A DNA stretch of 20,444 bases, from IMG/VR virus record IMGVR_UViG_3300032736_000517, positions 1-20,444 of that record; one strand, given 5' to 3'. Position numbers and translations under genes: made by a program. Positions 5,381 to 19,040 of this stretch are shown in pieces; within the stretch, counting starts at the first letter, position 1, and each line of letters starts with the position of its first letter. The stretch comes from a virus. Under the pieces are notes generated by a model. That model ran no database searches. It was not told the DNA's origin and saw only the letters and a list, made by a program, of their open reading frames with translations.

Positions 5381-6799
5381 ATGGACGACGAGCTCTATTC
5401 CGGCGAGGACGCGGCCTTCGGTGGCAACGCCCGTGAGGCCGCCGACCTGATGAAGGCCATGACCGGCGGCGAGTTGCCGACCGCGGGCGCGCAGATCGCC
5501 GGCGATTCCGGCCCCATCACCCCGCAGGACCTCGAGGCCGATCTGAAGGTGCAGACCTTCCAGTCCAAGCACCTCAAGCTGTTCCCCCGCCTGAACGCGC
5601 GCAAGGCGACGGCCGCAGCCCTGGTGCACGAGTTCAGCCGCCTGCACGAGTACGGGTCGGCCGCGGACTTCATCACGCACGAGATGGGCGGGCTGCCGGT
5701 CGAGGACGACAGCACCTACAGCCGCGAGCTCTTGCGCATGAAGTACATGGGCAACACCCGCCGCATGCCGCTGGCGGTCGCGATTCAGAAGAGCCTGGCC
5801 GGGCCGCACATCGTGCGGGAAAACAACAACGGGATGCTGACGATGCTCCAGGGCATCGAGCGCCTCTGCTACGAGGGTGACAGCTCGGTCAACCCGCGTC
5901 ACTTCGACGGCATCCGCAAGATCATGATCGACGGCGGCGCGAGCATCATCGACGCGGCCGGCGCGCTGATCACCGAGGACATGCTGCTCGAGGCCTCGGC
6001 CCAGGCGACCGACCAGCCGAACTACGGCATGCCCGACCTGCTGCACGCGCCCGTCGCGGGCGTGAAGGACATCAGCCGCGTCTTCCTGCAGCGCATGCGC
6101 AAGGACTTCGGCTCGGACATCCAGCCGAACACCGCGATCCGCAAGTGGGGCTTCCAGCACGGCGACGTGGCGATCGAGCAGAGCACCTTCCTGCGCGCCC
6201 GCGACGTGCCCCCCAACGACGGCAACGGCTACGGGCCGATCGCGAGCAAGCGCCCGCTGGCGCCCGTGGTGGTCACGCAGCCGGCCGACGCGGGGTCCGG
6301 CTACACCAAGTGGACCGCGGCCTGGGCCGGCGGGGCCAACTACATCTACAAGGTCGCGCTGGTGAACCCCTATGGCGAGGGGCCCTGCGTCACGACCAAC
6401 GCGGTCGCGCACGCCACGGGCACGCGCGTCGACATCGTGGTCAAGGACGTCGGCGTCGGCGACCAGCGGGCCACCGGCATCAAGGTCTACCGCAGCACCA
6501 AGGCCGGCGCGGCCTCGACCTGCAAGGAGGCATTCAAGGTCGGCATCAGCGGCGCCGGCAACCAGACGATCGCGGACCTGAACGAGTGGATCCCAGGGGC
6601 GGCCGAGTTCTACCTGCTCGAGGACAGCGCGGACGCGCTCGAGTGGCGGCAGTTCCTCCCCTTCACGCAGTGGCCCCTCGGCAAGCTGGACACCTCGTAT
6701 CGCTGGGCGTTGCTGAACTACGGCGCGCTCGAGTCGGGCACGCCCCGGCACCACGCCCTCATCAAGAACGTGGCGCTCGGGACCGCGCTGGCGCCCTGA
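5381..6799 (+). CDS. Major capsid protein with Ig-like insertion
   Basis: The product has 472 residues; the ATG follows GGGAGACGAGAG. After a probable removable N-terminus (about 1-50) comes LEADLKVQTFQSKHLKLFP, then HEFSRLHEYGSAADFITHE, DSTYSRELLRMKYMG, and a core with NNNGMLTMLQGIERLCYEGDS. This pattern is characteristic of the HK97-fold capsid proteins of SPO1/Twort-like and related myoviruses. Residues of about 300-405 form an Ig/fibronectin-like insertion (YIYKVALVNPYGEGP, GIKVYRSTKAG) that would project from the capsid surface, an arrangement known in that family. The fold resumes with NEWIPGAAEF and PLGKLDTSYRWALLNYGALE. K25-E52 is nearly identical to part of the protease C-terminus. 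It is followed by a stable hairpin (6822-6847). Confidence 0.85.
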   Translation: MDDELYSGEDAAFGGNAREAADLMKAMTGGELPTAGAQIAGDSGPITPQDLEADLKVQTFQSKHLKLFPRLNARKATAAALVHEFSRLHEYGSAADFITHEMGGLPVEDDSTYSRELLRMKYMGNTRRMPLAVAIQKSLAGPHIVRENNNGMLTMLQGIERLCYEGDSSVNPRHFDGIRKIMIDGGASIIDAAGALITEDMLLEASAQATDQPNYGMPDLLHAPVAGVKDISRVFLQRMRKDFGSDIQPNTAIRKWGFQHGDVAIEQSTFLRARDVPPNDGNGYGPIASKRPLAPVVVTQPADAGSGYTKWTAAWAGGANYIYKVALVNPYGEGPCVTTNAVAHATGTRVDIVVKDVGVGDQRATGIKVYRSTKAGAASTCKEAFKVGISGAGNQTIADLNEWIPGAAEFYLLEDSADALEWRQFLPFTQWPLGKLDTSYRWALLNYGALESGTPRHHALIKNVALGTALAP

Positions 6800-11537: not shown

Positions 11538-12355
11538 TGAACGGGCCGCGCCTCACGCCCGCGCGCGTCGCGCCGGGGCCCGGCAAGATCGGGCCCCGCA
11601 CGCAGATGACGGCGGCCGAGTTCGCCAAGCTGGTCGAGACCCACGGCTACAGCGTGCTGTGGGAGCACGGGTCGCGCTGCGCGTGCTCGAACAACCCCGA
11701 GACCGGCCAGCCGCACATCAACTGCCCCGTCTGCCGGGGGCGCGGGTGGGAGTACCACACCGCCCAGGAAGTGCGCACCATCGTGGACGGGATCTCGCAG
11801 CGGGCCGACGGGTGGATCGCCTGGGGTGACTACGCGCCCGGCAAGGCGCAGTTCACGGTGCGTCCCGAGCACCGGCCGGGACGCTGGCACCGCTACACCC
11901 TGCTGGACTGCACGACGGCGCACTCCGAGGTGCTCGAGCGGGCCGCCATCGGGAGCGTGGATCGGCCGTCGTTCCCGATCGCGTCGCGCCCGATGCGCCT
12001 CCTGATGCCGACGCACGGCGGCGGCACGGTCCTGCGCAACCTCAGCCTGACCGTCACCTACTGCCGCCTGCGCGGCGCCGATGGCCTGCCGGGCCCGGTG
12101 CGCGTCGTGGGCGAGGACTTCGACGTGACGCCGGGCGGCGACATCGACTGGTCGCGTGGGCAGTCCCGCAGCACCGCCCCGGTGGGCGGGCAGGGCTACG
12201 CCATCGAATACGAGACGCACCCCCGCTTCATCGTCCGCGACTTCCCCTACGTGATCCGCGCCGGCCAGGTGCAGTTCAAAGCGCCCGAGGCGGCGCACGA
12301 AGAAATGGCCGTCACGGTCATGGCCGACATCGACTTCCTGCCCCGGGAGGGCTGA
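11537..12355 (+). CDS. Neck-type virion protein with four-cysteine zinc site
   Basis: The product has 272 residues; the ATG overlaps the previous stop by one base (TGATG). An N-terminal helical part (about 24-42) leads to a zinc-binding cluster: C48-x-C50 and C63-x2-C66 (CPVCRGRGW). It is followed by a mainly beta domain (KAQFTVRPEHRPGRWHRYTL, NLSLTVTYCRLRG, QFKAPEAAHEEMAVTVM). Proteins with this 'CxC...CPxCxGxG' arrangement followed by beta domains occur in the neck or tail regions of SPO1-like and other large phages. It probably acts with the adaptor as a neck ring or tail-joining protein. The exact role is inferred from order. Confidence 0.7.
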   Translation: MNGPRLTPARVAPGPGKIGPRTQMTAAEFAKLVETHGYSVLWEHGSRCACSNNPETGQPHINCPVCRGRGWEYHTAQEVRTIVDGISQRADGWIAWGDYAPGKAQFTVRPEHRPGRWHRYTLLDCTTAHSEVLERAAIGSVDRPSFPIASRPMRLLMPTHGGGTVLRNLSLTVTYCRLRGADGLPGPVRVVGEDFDVTPGGDIDWSRGQSRSTAPVGGQGYAIEYETHPRFIVRDFPYVIRAGQVQFKAPEAAHEEMAVTVMADIDFLPREG

Positions 12356-12358
12356 CCC

Positions 12359-14695
12359 ATGCGCTTCTTCCTGCCGATCGACGCACCCGAGGGGGACGAC
12401 TTCTACAAGTCCGAGGACGCGGGCGGACTGCTCGACGTGGTCGAGCTGCCGCCCATGCTCGGGATGCTCCTGTGGATGGCGCAGGGCGGCGCCGACGTCG
12501 TGGCGAAGGGCGCCGGGCACAAGTACCTCAAGCGAATCCCGACCGGGAACCCGAAGCGCCCCTGGAAGTACATCTACCGGGTGGGCCAGGGCGGCGCGCT
12601 CCACGCCGAGGAGCACATGCAGGTGGGCGCGGCCTTCAAGGTCGCGAACGCGGGCAAGGAGGGGCACTTCCACGTGGTCGCCGCCGACGGGGACCACGTC
12701 ACCATCCGCCACGACGAGTCCGGCCACGAGGAGCGCGTCAGCCGGAAGGCCCTCGCGGCCATGATCCACTCCGAGCACGCCGAGGCCATCGGGGCGCACC
12801 GCGAGAAGCTGGGGCGGGACATCGCGACCGCCCGGAAGAAGGGGAGCGCGAAGCAGGCCAGCAGGCTCGAGGCGGAGGCGCGGCGCAACGAGTATCACGA
12901 GCACCTCGCCCACGCCGCCGCGCACGACGAGACCACCGGCTACAAGGAGCCGGATGGCTGGACCATGGGCAAGAAGGCCATCCCACCCCGCCACGTCCTC
13001 GGCGACCACCTCGACGAGGAGACCCGCGACTGGTCCGCCCAGGATCACCATGATGCCGCCGCTGGGCTGCGCAACCGGCACATGATCGCGGAGGTCACGG
13101 GCTCGGGGGTCGACCTCGACACGCTCACCAGCACGGGCGCGCAACACCCGGTCTTCGGCGGCGACGGAGAGGTCATCAGCGCCCCCGATGGGACCAAGTA
13201 CCGGCGCGGCATGAAGGTGTCCTACGGGCAGGACAAGGGGCGCCAGCAGTGGATCGCCGTCGGCGACAACCCGGTCGGGGCGCGTGGTCACACCCGCGCA
13301 GACCTCGAGCGGAAGCACGGCGCCGAGGGGTGGGGCGAGGCGAACGAGTCGAAGGGCGAGGCGCACGACCGCGTCGTGACGAAGATGAAGAACAGTCTGT
13401 GGGGAGCGGGGGCCGAGGACGTCGGCCGCGCCCTTCATCAGCACGTCACGGCCGACGCGCAGGGCAAGGCCTCGGGCCAGATCGCAGACGACAAGCACGG
13501 CCCGATCTCGATGGCCCACGCCGCCGACCTCATGGACGCCCACGAGCGGAACGCCAACCGGACCCGCAGCCGCTTCGACAACAAGCCGGTGGCGTGGGCG
13601 CCGCGGCTGACCGACGACCAGTTGGATCGCATCGTCACGGCCCGTGGCAACCCCGGGCTGTCCGACTCGTTCCACCGTGAGCTCGCCGCGCGGTGGGGCA
13701 AGGGTCTCGCGCACGGCGACCACGGCGACCACGGCGTGACCAAGGTGGGGTCCGACTGGCACGTCACGAAGGGTGAGGGTGAGCGGCGCACGAGCGTCAA
13801 CGCCAAGACCAAGGGCGAGGCGCTCCACGCGGCCGGCATGATGGCGCGAGGGGACAGCGAGGCCGAAGCCAACGCGGCGGTCATCTCGGGGCAGGCGAAG
13901 CGCGCCCTCGAGCTGCACGCGCACGCCAAGGAGATCGCCAAGCTCGGCGAGACGGCCGCGTCGCTCGATGGCATGGCGCAGGTCGCTGCGCCCAAGCCCG
14001 GTGCCTTCGCGGTGAAGCCGAAGGCCCACGCGACGCGCGAGTCCGCCGCCAGGCGGTTGTCGGGCTTCGCGTCCAAGGACCACCTCAACCGCGACAACCT
14101 GGGCCACTACAAGGTCGAGGGCGGCATGGCGACCGCCACGGACGGGTACCGCCTGGCGCGGGTCCCCGTGGCGGGAGACCACCGCGAGGGTGGCACCTAC
14201 CGCGCGTTCAAGCACCCCATGCTCGCCAACAGGGACGCGGGGAGCGAGGGCCGTGTCGACTTCCCGCACTACCAGGCCGTCACCAAGGACACGCAGCACC
14301 AGGACGACATCGACGCCGGGCACATGAAGCGCGTCGTCGGGGCGATTCAGGCGCATGCGGGGCCGGGCGCCAGCCTCACGATTCATCGGCGCGGCGGCAA
14401 GGTCTTCGCGTCGCACATCTCATCCGACCCGAAGTACGCCGATGGCGGCGCCCCGATGATTCCGCTCGGCGCCACGTCGGCACCGGATAGCGACGTCGCA
14501 GTCAACGCTCGCTACCTGGCGGACGCGGTCTCGGGCGCAAAGGGGACGGTGCGGCTGGGCATCGACCAGCCGCGCAAGAATCACTATGAGGTCCCGGTCA
14601 CTGTGCACCGCGAGGACGGCGAGAAGCACTGGGTGATGCCGTTGAACCCCTCGGCTCTCAAGGGCGGGCTGGCAGCCCTCCACCGCCGCGGCTGA
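12359..14695 (+). CDS. Large multidomain virion-region protein with C-terminal DnaN (sliding-clamp)-like domain
   Basis: The product has 778 residues, with the ATG three bases after the upstream stop. The N-terminal 75 residues include HKYLKRIPTGNPKRPWKYIY (54-73), a motif I associate with large phage head proteins. The middle (about 80-500) is helical, His-rich and charged. Around 460-495 (WHVTKGEGERRTS, KGEALHAAG) it resembles a small beta-beta-alpha DUF2188-like unit. Residues of about 565-765 look like a DNA polymerase III beta-clamp domain: GFASKDHL, then TDGYRLAR (594-601), FPHYQAV (635-641), NARYLADAV (716-724), and WVMPL (758-762). All are in DnaN order. I see no leader peptide and no membrane segment. 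A virion-delivered or DNA-bound role is possible. Alternatively the clamp fold may be reused structurally. It has no close spacing problem and appears intact. Confidence 0.7.
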   Translation: MRFFLPIDAPEGDDFYKSEDAGGLLDVVELPPMLGMLLWMAQGGADVVAKGAGHKYLKRIPTGNPKRPWKYIYRVGQGGALHAEEHMQVGAAFKVANAGKEGHFHVVAADGDHVTIRHDESGHEERVSRKALAAMIHSEHAEAIGAHREKLGRDIATARKKGSAKQASRLEAEARRNEYHEHLAHAAAHDETTGYKEPDGWTMGKKAIPPRHVLGDHLDEETRDWSAQDHHDAAAGLRNRHMIAEVTGSGVDLDTLTSTGAQHPVFGGDGEVISAPDGTKYRRGMKVSYGQDKGRQQWIAVGDNPVGARGHTRADLERKHGAEGWGEANESKGEAHDRVVTKMKNSLWGAGAEDVGRALHQHVTADAQGKASGQIADDKHGPISMAHAADLMDAHERNANRTRSRFDNKPVAWAPRLTDDQLDRIVTARGNPGLSDSFHRELAARWGKGLAHGDHGDHGVTKVGSDWHVTKGEGERRTSVNAKTKGEALHAAGMMARGDSEAEANAAVISGQAKRALELHAHAKEIAKLGETAASLDGMAQVAAPKPGAFAVKPKAHATRESAARRLSGFASKDHLNRDNLGHYKVEGGMATATDGYRLARVPVAGDHREGGTYRAFKHPMLANRDAGSEGRVDFPHYQAVTKDTQHQDDIDAGHMKRVVGAIQAHAGPGASLTIHRRGGKVFASHISSDPKYADGGAPMIPLGATSAPDSDVAVNARYLADAVSGAKGTVRLGIDQPRKNHYEVPVTVHREDGEKHWVMPLNPSALKGGLAALHRRG

Positions 14696-14746: not shown

Positions 14747-15751
14747 GTGCTGCTACGCTGGCAGCGCCTGACGCCCGGCTGGGTTGCGCCCGTGCTCGAG
14801 ATCGACAGCAACAACCTGAGCATGCTCCTCGACGTCGCAGGGATGGGCCCCGACGACCTGCGCAAGCGCTTCCAGCGCCTGATCATGGCGGCGCAGAGCG
14901 AGATGAAGCGCCAGGTTCGCAACGGGCTGAACACGACGGCGCGCGACTACATGGCCGCGATCCAGCCGGCGCGACTCGACCTCAACCCAGAGGACGGCAA
15001 GATGGCCGCCGCGATCGATCTGGTGGGCGGCCTGCCCAACATGATCGAGCACGGCGCCCCGCCATGGGATCTCCGCAACACGCTCCTCCGGCCTGGCACC
15101 CGCAAGCTCCGCGTGAGCAAGACGGGGCACTACTACCTGAGCGTCCGGTTTCGGCACTCCGATCCGACGACGGCCGGGCAGGTTGGGACCCCCGCCGGGC
15201 AGCAGCACTCCAAGGATGGACAGGGCCTGCTGAACCGCGGCTTCCGCGGCAGGATGGACGGCGACGACGCCCGGACGATGGGCCGGGCCGCCATCCGCGA
15301 GGCGCAGCAACTCGCCGCGACCCGGTCGGGCCCCGCCGGCACCGAGGACCAACGCCGGAGCCAGGACGCGCTGCGGAAGCTCGCTGCCAACTACGCCGCC
15401 AAGGGCAACAAGCGCTGGGCCGACAAGATGGTCACGGCCGCTTACAACGCCGCGCCGCGGGCGGTGCAGTACGGCGACCGCATCGAGGAAGGCCACGCGC
15501 CCATCCTGCGCGCCCGCCACGCGACCGATCTGTTCGCCGGCATGGTGCGCGAGACCAAGACCTACGAGAAGGCGACGCAGGCGCAGTACGCCACCTTCCG
15601 CACCATCAGCAACAACCCGAAGTCCTACCGCTACGACGACGAGGGCGGTTCGATGGAGCGCAACTGGACCCACCCCGGGTTCACCGCGCGCGGCTTCTTC
15701 TTCTCGACCATGCGCTGGGTCAACGACAACGGCGGGGCCTTCTTCCAGTGA
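14747..15751 (+). CDS. Neck/tail-completion-type virion protein
   Basis: The product has 334 residues from GTG at 14747, with AGAGG at 14736-14740. Residues of about 30-80 are helical (LRKRFQRLIMAAQSEMKRQ). A central segment mentions GHYYLSVRFRHSDP (about 128-141) and a Gly/Asn/Arg-rich basic part follows. The C-terminus holds LFAGMVRETKTY, then YATFRTISNNPKS and ERNWTHPGFTARGFF. This C-terminal pattern (helix, 'TFR-IS', 'W-HPG') is widespread in phage neck and tail-completion proteins just upstream of sheath genes. The role would be joining the tail to the head or capping the tail. The stop overlaps the next gene's GTG by four bases (GTGA). Confidence 0.65.
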   Translation: MLLRWQRLTPGWVAPVLEIDSNNLSMLLDVAGMGPDDLRKRFQRLIMAAQSEMKRQVRNGLNTTARDYMAAIQPARLDLNPEDGKMAAAIDLVGGLPNMIEHGAPPWDLRNTLLRPGTRKLRVSKTGHYYLSVRFRHSDPTTAGQVGTPAGQQHSKDGQGLLNRGFRGRMDGDDARTMGRAAIREAQQLAATRSGPAGTEDQRRSQDALRKLAANYAAKGNKRWADKMVTAAYNAAPRAVQYGDRIEEGHAPILRARHATDLFAGMVRETKTYEKATQAQYATFRTISNNPKSYRYDDEGGSMERNWTHPGFTARGFFFSTMRWVNDNGGAFFQ

Positions 15752-16476
15752 GCCGCGCCATGCACCAGGAAGCGCCGGCGTTCGCCGAGGGCGGCGCGCA
15801 GGCCTTCGGCGCCTTCGGCGCGGCGCGCCGGCTGGTGGTCATCGCCCTGCGCAACGGCGTCGAGCACTTCCAGTCGCACCCGCGGCTGTGGCGCCACCTG
15901 CTCGACGGCGTCCCCTCTGACCAGGTGGACCAGGTCGCGACCTACTTCGCCGCGACCCCCCCGGCCATCATCGCCGGCTACCCGCGCGCGCAGATGCGGA
16001 CCGACCAGATCGCGGTCATCAAGAGCGCCGAGGAGGCGGTCGACGAAGTGCTCGGCGACTTCGTCGGGTTCGGCGTCGACACCCTCGGCGCCTACGACGC
16101 GGGCGACGCGCTCGAGCTGCGCGGTGCGGTGCACCGCAAGCGCCTGCAGGTCATGGTCATCACGCGCCACCCCGACATCGCCGAGGTGCTCGACGCCTTC
16201 GTGGTCGCGACCCTGCGCGCGCACAGCGACTGGCTGGCCGAGCACGGCGTGCGGGACCTGTCCTACATGGGCGGCGGCGAGCTCGCGCCCGATCTGCGCT
16301 TCCTTCCGGCCGAGTGCTACGTCCAGGGCTCCGACTGGTCGTGCCTCGGCGTGGCGGCCCTGCCGCTGCCCACGTTGCGCCCCCCGCGGCGCCTGTGGGC
16401 CTTCCTCGAGACGGCCACCCCCGAGGGCATCACGCCCGGCGTGGAGGCCACCACCATCATCACGGGGGACACCTGA
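15748..16476 (+). CDS. Probable tail terminator or neck protein upstream of the sheath
   Basis: The product has 242 residues from GTG at 15748 (GTGA overlap); ATG at 15760 is an alternative. It shows helix-rich and strand-rich alternation. Notable segments are RLVVIALRNGVEHFQ, then AVIKSAEEAVDEVLGDFVG, DALELRGAVHRKRLQVMVITR, DIAEVLDAFVVATLRAHSDW and LSYMGGGELAPD. The run 'helix-(K/R)LQVMVI-helix' and position directly before a sheath gene match tail terminator or completion proteins. These end tube polymerisation and often contact the neck. No signature motif fixes this. The stop overlaps the sheath ATG by one base (TGATG). Confidence 0.6.
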   Translation: MSRAMHQEAPAFAEGGAQAFGAFGAARRLVVIALRNGVEHFQSHPRLWRHLLDGVPSDQVDQVATYFAATPPAIIAGYPRAQMRTDQIAVIKSAEEAVDEVLGDFVGFGVDTLGAYDAGDALELRGAVHRKRLQVMVITRHPDIAEVLDAFVVATLRAHSDWLAEHGVRDLSYMGGGELAPDLRFLPAECYVQGSDWSCLGVAALPLPTLRPPRRLWAFLETATPEGITPGVEATTIITGDT

Positions 16477-19040
16477 TGCCCGCGACCTCCTTCACCGGCC
16501 CGGCCGGCAGCGTCTCGCGACGCCCCGGCGTCCGCGGGCGCATCGACGCCAGCGCCCTCAACCGGGCCCCCGCCGGCCCTCGGCGCGTGGCCCTCATCGG
16601 CGAGGCCGAGGGCGGGGTCCCGATCACGGTGGTCGAGTCCGGCGCTCCCGCCGTGCGGCTGGCATCGAGCCCCGGCGGCGTGCGGGCCCTGTTCCGCGCC
16701 GGGGCGCTCCGGGTCGCCGGCACCCTGGCGTTCCGCGCCTCGCGTGACCCGCTGGTGCCCAACGCGCCGGCCGAGGTCCTGTTCTGCAAGGTCAACCCCG
16801 GCACCCGCGGCGTCGCCACGCTGCAGGGCCCGGGCGGCGACGCGCTGGTGGTGCGGAGCCGTGACTACGCGGAGTTCGCCAACCGCATGTCGATCGACCT
16901 GGACCCCGGAAGCATCACCGGGTTCAAGGCGATCATCCGCCTCGAGGACACGGTCGAGACGCTCGACGACATCGGCGGCGAGCCGGTGCTGACCCTGCGC
17001 TACCCGACGTCGGGCGACGCCAGCACGATGACGCTGACGAAGAACAGCACCGGCGTCAGCGCCACATTCACCTTCGCCCGCACGATCGGGTCGGTCGACA
17101 TCATCGAGGACGCGCACGTGGCGGGGCAGGTGGCCCGCGCCAAGAGCAACAACGCCTACGACACGCACCAGACCGTGACCGTATACGGCGTCTCGTCGCT
17201 CGACGTGCCCGTGCTCGACCGCATCCGGCTCAACGGCACCACGGTCGTCTCCGGCACCGTCGCCTTCAAGGCCATCACCGGCGTGCGCGTCGACGGCGCC
17301 ACGCGGGGCGAGGTCGCAGTCGACGAGCCGAGCCTGACCAACGTCGCGTTCGCGATCACCGCGACGCTGACCGCCTCGCACACGGCCGGCAACGCGGTGC
17401 GGGTCCTCAGCTCGAGCGCCGCCGACCTGGGCCAGCGGATCACGATCTACGGCGTCGACGCCGCCGGCCAGCGCATCAGCGAGGCCATGACCCTCGCGGG
17501 CGACGCGAACGTCGACGGGGCGAAGTCGTTCCAGAAGATCACCGCCGCGCGGCTCGACGCCGCCTGCGCCGGCAACGTGACCGTCAAGAGCGTGTCGGGC
17601 GACGTCGCATTCATCATCGCGGCCGGCTCACTGTCCGCCGGCACCGCCGTCGCCGGCGGCCTGCGCTTCTTCAACTCGATGCCCGTCGACGGCGCCATCA
17701 CGCTGGTCGCCGCGGGCGCGCCGGCCGGCGCCCCCTTCGCGGTGCTGCGCGGCCTGGACAAGAGCGGCGCCGCCGTCGCCGAGCGGGTCCTCATCACCGA
17801 CGCGCCCGCGACCACCACGACACTCTGGTCGCGGCTCGACCACCTCGAGATGGGGCTGATCGAGGAATCGCTGGCGCTCACCATGAGCGGGACCGCGCTG
17901 AGCGCCCCGGTCGCGAAGATCCCGACCGTCGCGGCCCTCGTGAGCTTCATCAACGGCAAGCCCGGATTCATCGCCGAGGTCGTCGCGCCGGACCCGTCCA
18001 TCCGCCTCGTCGCGGACCTGGACGCCGCCACCAGCCTCAACGTGCGCAGCAACGCCGACGTCGCTCTGCTGGCGGACCTGAAGGCGCTGGTCGACACCAT
18101 CAGCCAGCGGTCGGCCCTGCTGACGGCCGAGGCCGCCGGCGGGGCCGCGGGGCCGCCCTCGCACACGGACCAGGCGGTGTTCCTCGCCGGCGGCAGCGAG
18201 GGCACCACGCGCGCGAGCGACTGGCAGGCGGCCTTCGACGCGCTGCGCTCCTACGCCGACGTGATCATCGTCCCGCTGACCCAGGACGCGGCCGTCCACA
18301 CGCAGCTCGCCCGGCACCTGACCCAGATGGAGTCGGACACGGTCGGGGCCAACGCCCGACAGGGCTACGTCGGCCTGTCCACCATCCTGGACTTCGCCAG
18401 CCTCAAGTCGGCCGTGCGGGCCCTCAACAACCGCAACCTCGCCTCGGTCGCGCAGAGCCCCAAGGTCTACGACGACGCCAACGCCGCCGTCACCCTGGGG
18501 CCGCAGTACCTCGCGGTCATGGCGGCTGCGATGCAGGCCGGCAGCGGCTTCGCCGAGCCGCTGACGTGGAAGTCGCTCGACGTGCTCGCCCTCGAGCAGC
18601 ACGTGTCGTGGTCGCCCCTCGAGAACGTGGAGTCCGCCCTCGAGGCGGGCCTGATGTTCGCGCGCTGGGACGACGGGCGCGGGCAGTACCAGTGGGAGCG
18701 CGGCATCACGACCTACCGCGACACCAACCAGGTGTTCGGCGAGGTCAGCGCCAACGAGAGCGCCAACTTCTCGCGCAACCGCGCCGAGGCGGTCCTGAAC
18801 GCGATGATCGGCCGCCCGGGCTTCCGCGGGACCGCGAGCAGCATCCGGTCGCTGCTCATCGCGGAGCTGCAGCGGCAGGTCGAGGACGGCGTGATCGCCG
18901 CGTTCAGCGAGTCCAGCGTCGAGGTGCAGAACCTCGGCGACGGCTTCAACGCGCAGTACCAGGCCGCGCCGATCCTCCCCGTCAACTTCATCGGGCTCAC
19001 GGCCCGCATGGTCCCGCTCGCCTTCCTGGCGGCGGCGTAA
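16476..19040 (+). CDS. Contractile tail sheath protein with an inserted triple beta-module
   Basis: The product has 854 residues, well above the roughly 400-660 residues usual for sheaths. The N-terminal region (1-200) has RRVALIGEAEGGVP and VRALFRAGALR. The C-terminal part (about 595-854) has the conserved sheath end: ADVIIVPLTQDAAVH, LFARWDD-type strand, ITTYRDTNQ, RSLLIAELQRQ, VNFIGLTARMVPLAFL. In the middle are three related beta units near residues 210-305, 306-395 and 396-500. The first two each carry an 'I-Y-G' strand (V236-Y237-G238 and I324-Y325-G326), and the third has a weaker version at about V423-L424-R425-G426. These units would lie on the outer surface of the tail and could decorate it or bind host surfaces. 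The sheath polymerises around the tube and contracts for DNA injection. Confidence 0.85.
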   Translation: MPATSFTGPAGSVSRRPGVRGRIDASALNRAPAGPRRVALIGEAEGGVPITVVESGAPAVRLASSPGGVRALFRAGALRVAGTLAFRASRDPLVPNAPAEVLFCKVNPGTRGVATLQGPGGDALVVRSRDYAEFANRMSIDLDPGSITGFKAIIRLEDTVETLDDIGGEPVLTLRYPTSGDASTMTLTKNSTGVSATFTFARTIGSVDIIEDAHVAGQVARAKSNNAYDTHQTVTVYGVSSLDVPVLDRIRLNGTTVVSGTVAFKAITGVRVDGATRGEVAVDEPSLTNVAFAITATLTASHTAGNAVRVLSSSAADLGQRITIYGVDAAGQRISEAMTLAGDANVDGAKSFQKITAARLDAACAGNVTVKSVSGDVAFIIAAGSLSAGTAVAGGLRFFNSMPVDGAITLVAAGAPAGAPFAVLRGLDKSGAAVAERVLITDAPATTTTLWSRLDHLEMGLIEESLALTMSGTALSAPVAKIPTVAALVSFINGKPGFIAEVVAPDPSIRLVADLDAATSLNVRSNADVALLADLKALVDTISQRSALLTAEAAGGAAGPPSHTDQAVFLAGGSEGTTRASDWQAAFDALRSYADVIIVPLTQDAAVHTQLARHLTQMESDTVGANARQGYVGLSTILDFASLKSAVRALNNRNLASVAQSPKVYDDANAAVTLGPQYLAVMAAAMQAGSGFAEPLTWKSLDVLALEQHVSWSPLENVESALEAGLMFARWDDGRGQYQWERGITTYRDTNQVFGEVSANESANFSRNRAEAVLNAMIGRPGFRGTASSIRSLLIAELQRQVEDGVIAAFSESSVEVQNLGDGFNAQYQAAPILPVNFIGLTARMVPLAFLAAA

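Follow-up and report, generated by a model that had tools for sequence, protein, structure and literature searches.

The usual picture of a sliding clamp is that of a closed ring serving replication, and in rings of the DnaN type, domain I of one subunit joins domain III of the next. Clamp-binding peptides dock in a groove between domains II and III (PMC3335792). Phages also encode short stand-alone clamps of about 1.5 to 2 clamp domains, annotated as sliding clamps or as Pol III beta-like; examples are phrog_3007 and others, including proteins of Shigella phage EP23, Kagunavirus, Bacillus phage Sam46 (217 aa) and Aeromonas phage phiA8-29 (222 aa). A stand-alone phage clamp, Adephagia gp35, is reported to be toxic when expressed in M. 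smegmatis (PMC11373665). For polyvalent proteins whose genes lie next to those of the virion, packaging and injection are assumed, and clamps are unmentioned in the main text of the survey that describes this class (Iyer et al. 2017; PMC5512222). Here we analyze a phage gene in which a clamp domain is fused to a large protein of the virion region. We refer to the whole stretch of DNA that was analyzed, 20,444 nucleotides from a record that is a 20-kb fragment, as the window.

A divergent clamp domain in a late gene

The gene at 12359-14695 (Table 1) is one uninterrupted frame of 778 codons, and the frame is coding, as GC3 is 0.91 to 0.96 throughout, up to the end (0.93 to 0.96 in the N-terminal part and 0.91 in the clamp part). 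Long open reading frames are also present on the reverse strand of this region and are probably by-products of the 72% G+C content. The ATG start codon is preceded by GGGAGGG and lies 3 nt past the stop of the upstream gene (TGACCCATG); the start is near-coupled to the preceding late gene and has a Shine-Dalgarno sequence. The roughly 550 residues that precede the clamp module are otherwise unrecognised sequence. A Pfam search of the 778-aa product was without a match, and no domain of the polyvalent families (LPD, MPTase, ART, PBECR, etc.) was found in it. A search for RNA genes found none.

Table 1. Features of the clamp-bearing gene and of its neighbors in the window
Feature	Position	Strand	Basis or correspondence
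Major capsid protein	5381..6799	+	phrog_752 1.5e-54; tblastn to Bordetella PHB04, Thermus phiMa
Upstream conserved neck/virion gene	11540..12355	+	phrog_1004 7.8e-21
Whole gene (P0001) of a large protein, an insert flanked by two conserved neck genes	12359..14695	+	778 aa
DUF2188-like stretch (not established), residues ~458-502	13730..13864	+	weak: phrog_3220 E 0.012; PF09954 E 1.4 (below cut-off)
Truncated DnaN-type clamp domain, residues ~556-765	14024..14653	+	phrog_947, clamp HMMs, AF2 model, Foldseek
TDGYRLAR, residues 594-601	14138..14161	+	E. coli T172-A178, strand lining partner-binding groove
FPHYQAV, residues 635-641	14261..14281	+	E. coli FPDYRRV (groove P242, V247)
NARYLADAV, residues 716-724	14504..14530	+	E. 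coli NVSYVLDVL (N320, Y323)
WVMPL, residues 758-762	14630..14644	+	E. coli VVMPM (groove M362, P363)
Downstream conserved gene, adjoins phrog_1004 in relatives	14747..15751	+	phrog_16819 1.1e-23
Tail sheath	16476..19040	+	phrog_279 1.9e-46

Several profile comparisons related the end of the product to sliding clamps. PHROG 947, "DNA polymerase processivity factor," matched the whole protein with an E value of 1.2e-7 and the C-terminal part with 3.7e-9, and the match covers profile positions 238-363 of 368 along with a second stretch. Further profiles were built from phage clamps gathered by motif pattern and family search, with the window left out. With one such clamp HMM, the window domain (E 1e-4) outranked both 2000 shuffles of its own sequence and all other members of a set of over 8000 phage ORFs, and the next best score was E 2. 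A broader clamp HMM built without both the window and L123 gave E 1.8e-7 for the domain, and an hhalign comparison of its domain III gave E 4.4e-5. The motif-based clamp collection is slightly circular, whereas the PHROG 947 evidence is not. By its similarity to PHROG 947 and to the broader HMM, the domain belongs to the DnaN beta-clamp superfamily. An earlier note, which had proposed a DnaN-like domain here from the sequence alone, is thus borne out at the profile level, where the clamp family stands well above background, although the Pfam DNA_pol3_beta models themselves were unmatched. Single-sequence searches of Pfam, NCBIfam and PDB sequences gave no clamp match, and the domain is therefore very divergent. 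Scans of the genome collection with L123 and a three-sequence alignment produced no confirmed match (motif patterns were matched in 593 stretches), which speaks against a recent copy of host dnaN. These data confirm that residues ~556-765 of the product are a divergent DnaN-type clamp domain.

AlphaFold2, run on a 77-sequence clamp alignment, returned a model of the domain with a pLDDT of 83.3 and a pTM of 0.82. The top Foldseek matches of this model in the PDB were all bacterial sliding clamps (E 3e-10; TMq 0.58-0.67), and known phage clamps, short ones of 211-222 aa among them, headed the results from the viral library. The model has the clamp layout that the earlier note had looked for, and the fold predicted in this way is that of the DnaN beta-clamp superfamily. 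Because the single-sequence AlphaFold model failed (pLDDT 32, unusable except for the order of helices and strands), the case from structure depends on the alignment of clamps.

Missing and retained parts of the clamp

Aligned with E. coli DnaN, the window domain is identical at 30 of 197 positions (15%). It starts at the helix preceding R152 and includes T172-A178 and the whole of domain III; there is no domain I, and most of residues ~200-240 (E. coli numbering), which form the back half of domain II, is lacking, leaving domain II about 30 residues shorter in that half. In the C-terminal 210 residues, a cut-down DnaN module, domain II is represented by its front half and domain III is complete, in agreement with the earlier estimate of about one and a half clamp domains rather than a complete clamp. 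The DnaN-like motifs quoted in the earlier note are all present at the residues given there and in clamp order (Table 1), and the spacing between the first two of those in Table 1 is 41 residues, as claimed. Without domain I and the second half of domain II, the usual six-domain head-to-tail ring cannot form. The module is not a functional ring-forming beta clamp, which has three domains per subunit and dimerizes head to tail via domains I and III, and the finding is neither a new fold nor a replication ring.

Within the partner-binding groove, 10 of 14 positions are identical to those of E. coli: R152 and L155; T172, G174, R176 and L177 in TDGYRLAR; P242 and V247 in FPHYQAV; and M362 and P363 in WVMPL. 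The changes are H175 to Y in the first of these motifs, R246 to A in the second and V360 to W in the last, and in the remaining motif, NARYLADAV, N320, Y323 and D326 are identical. The 14 positions comprise the residues contacted by the inhibitor RU7 and others that we take to belong to the groove. Five of the six RU7-contacted residues (contacts from PMC3335792) are kept in the window domain. When only positions shared by half or more of the clamps are counted, 11 of 14 groove positions are kept, compared with 13 of 52 others; at a conservation of at least 0.85, the proportions are about equal (9 of 10 groove and 5 of 7 non-groove, with N320 and Y323 among the five). Since the difference is mostly gone at the higher threshold, groove retention is support, not proof, and it may partly reflect the family core. 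Judged by residue identity, the domain has the hydrophobic II/III groove residues of a clamp partner-binding module: the groove for QLxLF-type partner peptides appears largely kept, and binding is predicted on that basis.

Genomic setting and a parallel in an unrelated phage

The predicted capsid protein places the window phage among the SPO1/Bordetella PHB04/Thermus-type myoviruses. The module order is protease, capsid, adaptor (phrog_772), phrog_1004, the 12359-14695 gene, phrog_16819 and sheath, and the clamp-bearing gene does sit in the neck region, where it had been placed from the sequence. The genes of phrog_1004 and phrog_16819 directly adjoin, with small gaps between them, in nearly all of ~40 related contigs; L030 has a 1.4-kb insert at this place. 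No homologue of the 12359-14695 gene was found in the ~40 related contigs, save in the near-identical L002. Because its neighbors adjoin in relatives and the gene is absent there, we interpret it as an insertion into a conserved neck operon. Clamp-like genes are present in 4 of 34 related records, all as separate genes (one full-length and three short).

L002 is 99.95% identical to the window over 12.9 kb and is the sole second copy of the gene found. It carries the first 250 aa of the 778-aa product and ends ahead of the clamp domain, and the clamp part was seen in one contig only. Viral contigs were scanned with protein patterns of the domain, of the full 778-aa product and of the capsid protein, and only this near-identical contig was returned; tblastn for direct relatives of the protein in phages and plasmids returned none. 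The L002 copy has 18 more residues at residue ~236 (HHEAAAHHDNATDRAAKGDQDAAAGL compared with HHDAAAGL; window ~13050-13070), an in-frame length change within a low-complexity stretch.

In the window and in Thermus-type phages, the phrog_16819 gene shares the strand of the neck genes; in most relatives, it lies on the opposite strand within the late operon. The tail sheath protein has ~854 aa, compared with ~490 aa for the family profile, and contains a large extra N-terminal/middle region. In L010, L019, L031, L042 and L051, 4 to 7.5 kb of inserted genes lie between the capsid and adaptor genes, several of them resembling decoration or fibre proteins, and phages of this group have an insertion hot spot just behind the gene for the capsid protein.

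Among 131 clamp-bearing ORFs fetched, some of which are overlapping copies of one place, a clamp domain lies inside a larger protein only in the window and in G033. The G033 protein has 2628 aa and is encoded on the minus strand (L211:7271-15154) of a 44-kb phage contig, IMGVR_UViG_3300043448_000536, in a late operon after terminase, portal, capsid and a run of small proteins. It carries the polyvalent-protein domain LPD1 (E 1.9e-10) and, at residues ~1131-1307, a clamp module (phrog_3007 9.8e-17) that agrees with the groove consensus at 14 of 14 positions and in which the spacing between TDGHRLA and FPDINRV is shortened, similar to the window domain. Over its C-terminal 1000 aa, the G033 protein shares 31% identity with a Microcystis phage protein and resembles KPP25 virion structural proteins. 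Because the clamp is absent from the Microcystis phage homologue, the G033 clamp behaves as an exchangeable cargo module. G033 is an independent parallel in an unrelated phage, a virion-operon protein with a comparable module. The same protein has a zincin-like HEWGH motif. Other long clamp ORFs (470-623 aa) were considered as fusions and rejected, as most appear to be ordinary clamps with an in-frame upstream extension.

Possible roles and comparison with known systems

Taken together, the evidence points away from a replication clamp and suggests instead that the virus particle carries a clamp mimic. The reading that we prefer, and to which we would give an even chance, is that the 12359-14695 product acts in the manner of a polyvalent protein: it would be associated with the virion, and its clamp mimic would bind host clamp-binding proteins once inside the cell. 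The product would be packaged with the virion, as polyvalent or ejection proteins are, and would enter the cell together with the DNA. Host proteins that bind clamps (Pol III alpha, clamp-loader delta, repair polymerases, Hda and MutS) could then dock in the groove of the clamp module, which would either recruit these partners to the incoming genome or withdraw them from the host replisome. If true, this would give phages a new route to the replication and repair machinery of the host, open as soon as infection begins, via the groove-bearing half only. A wider proposal, possible but tentative and one that we lean against, is that ring-incompetent clamp mimics in virion proteins form a cargo class not described before, capturing host clamp-binding proteins at DNA entry, and that this class evolved at least twice, in the window phage and in G033.

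We think it unlikely that the clamp fold has been reused as a mere neck or capsid scaffold, for example gripping DNA or the portal ring, with no partner binding. Such a role would fit the position between neck genes, the several cases of other large proteins inserted in the head-neck region of relatives and the weak single-sequence similarity to clamps. However, relatives with an otherwise conserved neck lack the gene, which is therefore not a needed neck part, and the groove residues are preferentially kept. In addition, E. coli beta Y153/Y154, which contact DNA, are D/N in the window domain.

It is likewise improbable that the product is a replication accessory, that is, a short processivity factor fused in a late gene that acts in phage replication and is not packaged. 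Stand-alone short clamps can lie in phage replication modules, as in L082, and short clamps are annotated as sliding clamps in known phages, but the window gene is near-coupled to late neck genes and not to replication genes, the loss of domain I makes the usual ring (I to III) impossible, and the other fused case likewise lies in a virion operon. That the clamp part was joined by an assembly error or is decaying is very improbable: although it occurs in one contig only and the 18-aa difference from L002 shows that the gene varies, the frame is uninterrupted with high GC3 to its end, both flanks are genes expected to adjoin, and the motifs are intact.

The module that we read as a particle-borne clamp mimic shares with bacterial DnaN (PHROG 947; PF00712/PF02767/PF02768; PDB 4tr6, 6izo and 4k3p) the fold of the second half, the motif order and the groove residues. 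It differs in lacking domain I, in its shorter domain II, in its 15% identity to the E. coli protein and in its fusion to a 550-aa virion-region protein. Short phage clamps have the same motifs and are separate small genes, unlike the window fusion; the one context examined, that of L082, is a replication module, with the clamp beside a primase/helicase-type gene. The earlier note had regarded a clamp fold inside a virion-region protein as unfamiliar, and this stands for the fusion, which is unusual, but not for reduced clamps as such, as short stand-alone phage clamps (~200-250 aa) are already known. The truncation in L082, L100 and L132 is the opposite of that in the window: their clamps retain the back half of domain II, and the front of domain III is gone. 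Across these proteins and the window domain, different halves are dispensable and the groove motifs stay. The window domain was not matched by phrog_3007; phrog_947 alone was reported at E ≤ 10.

PHROG 3007 is labelled "RusA-like Holliday junction resolvase" and behaves as a short sliding-clamp family. Its profile matches 9 of 14 control genomes, presumably at their dnaN, and matches to it were found in L123, L100, L132, L082 and L063. Members of this family match phrog_947 and DNA_pol3_beta_2, and some are annotated as Pol III beta. The resolvase label is likely a propagated misannotation.

With polyvalent proteins, the window protein shares its large size and its location among virion genes, and the clamp is the only domain identified in it. 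Because a characteristic polyvalent domain is absent, we do not file it as a member of that class and propose only that it works like one, whereas G033 combines a clamp module with LPD1. If the proposal is true, the clamp module would extend the list of domains known in polyvalent proteins.
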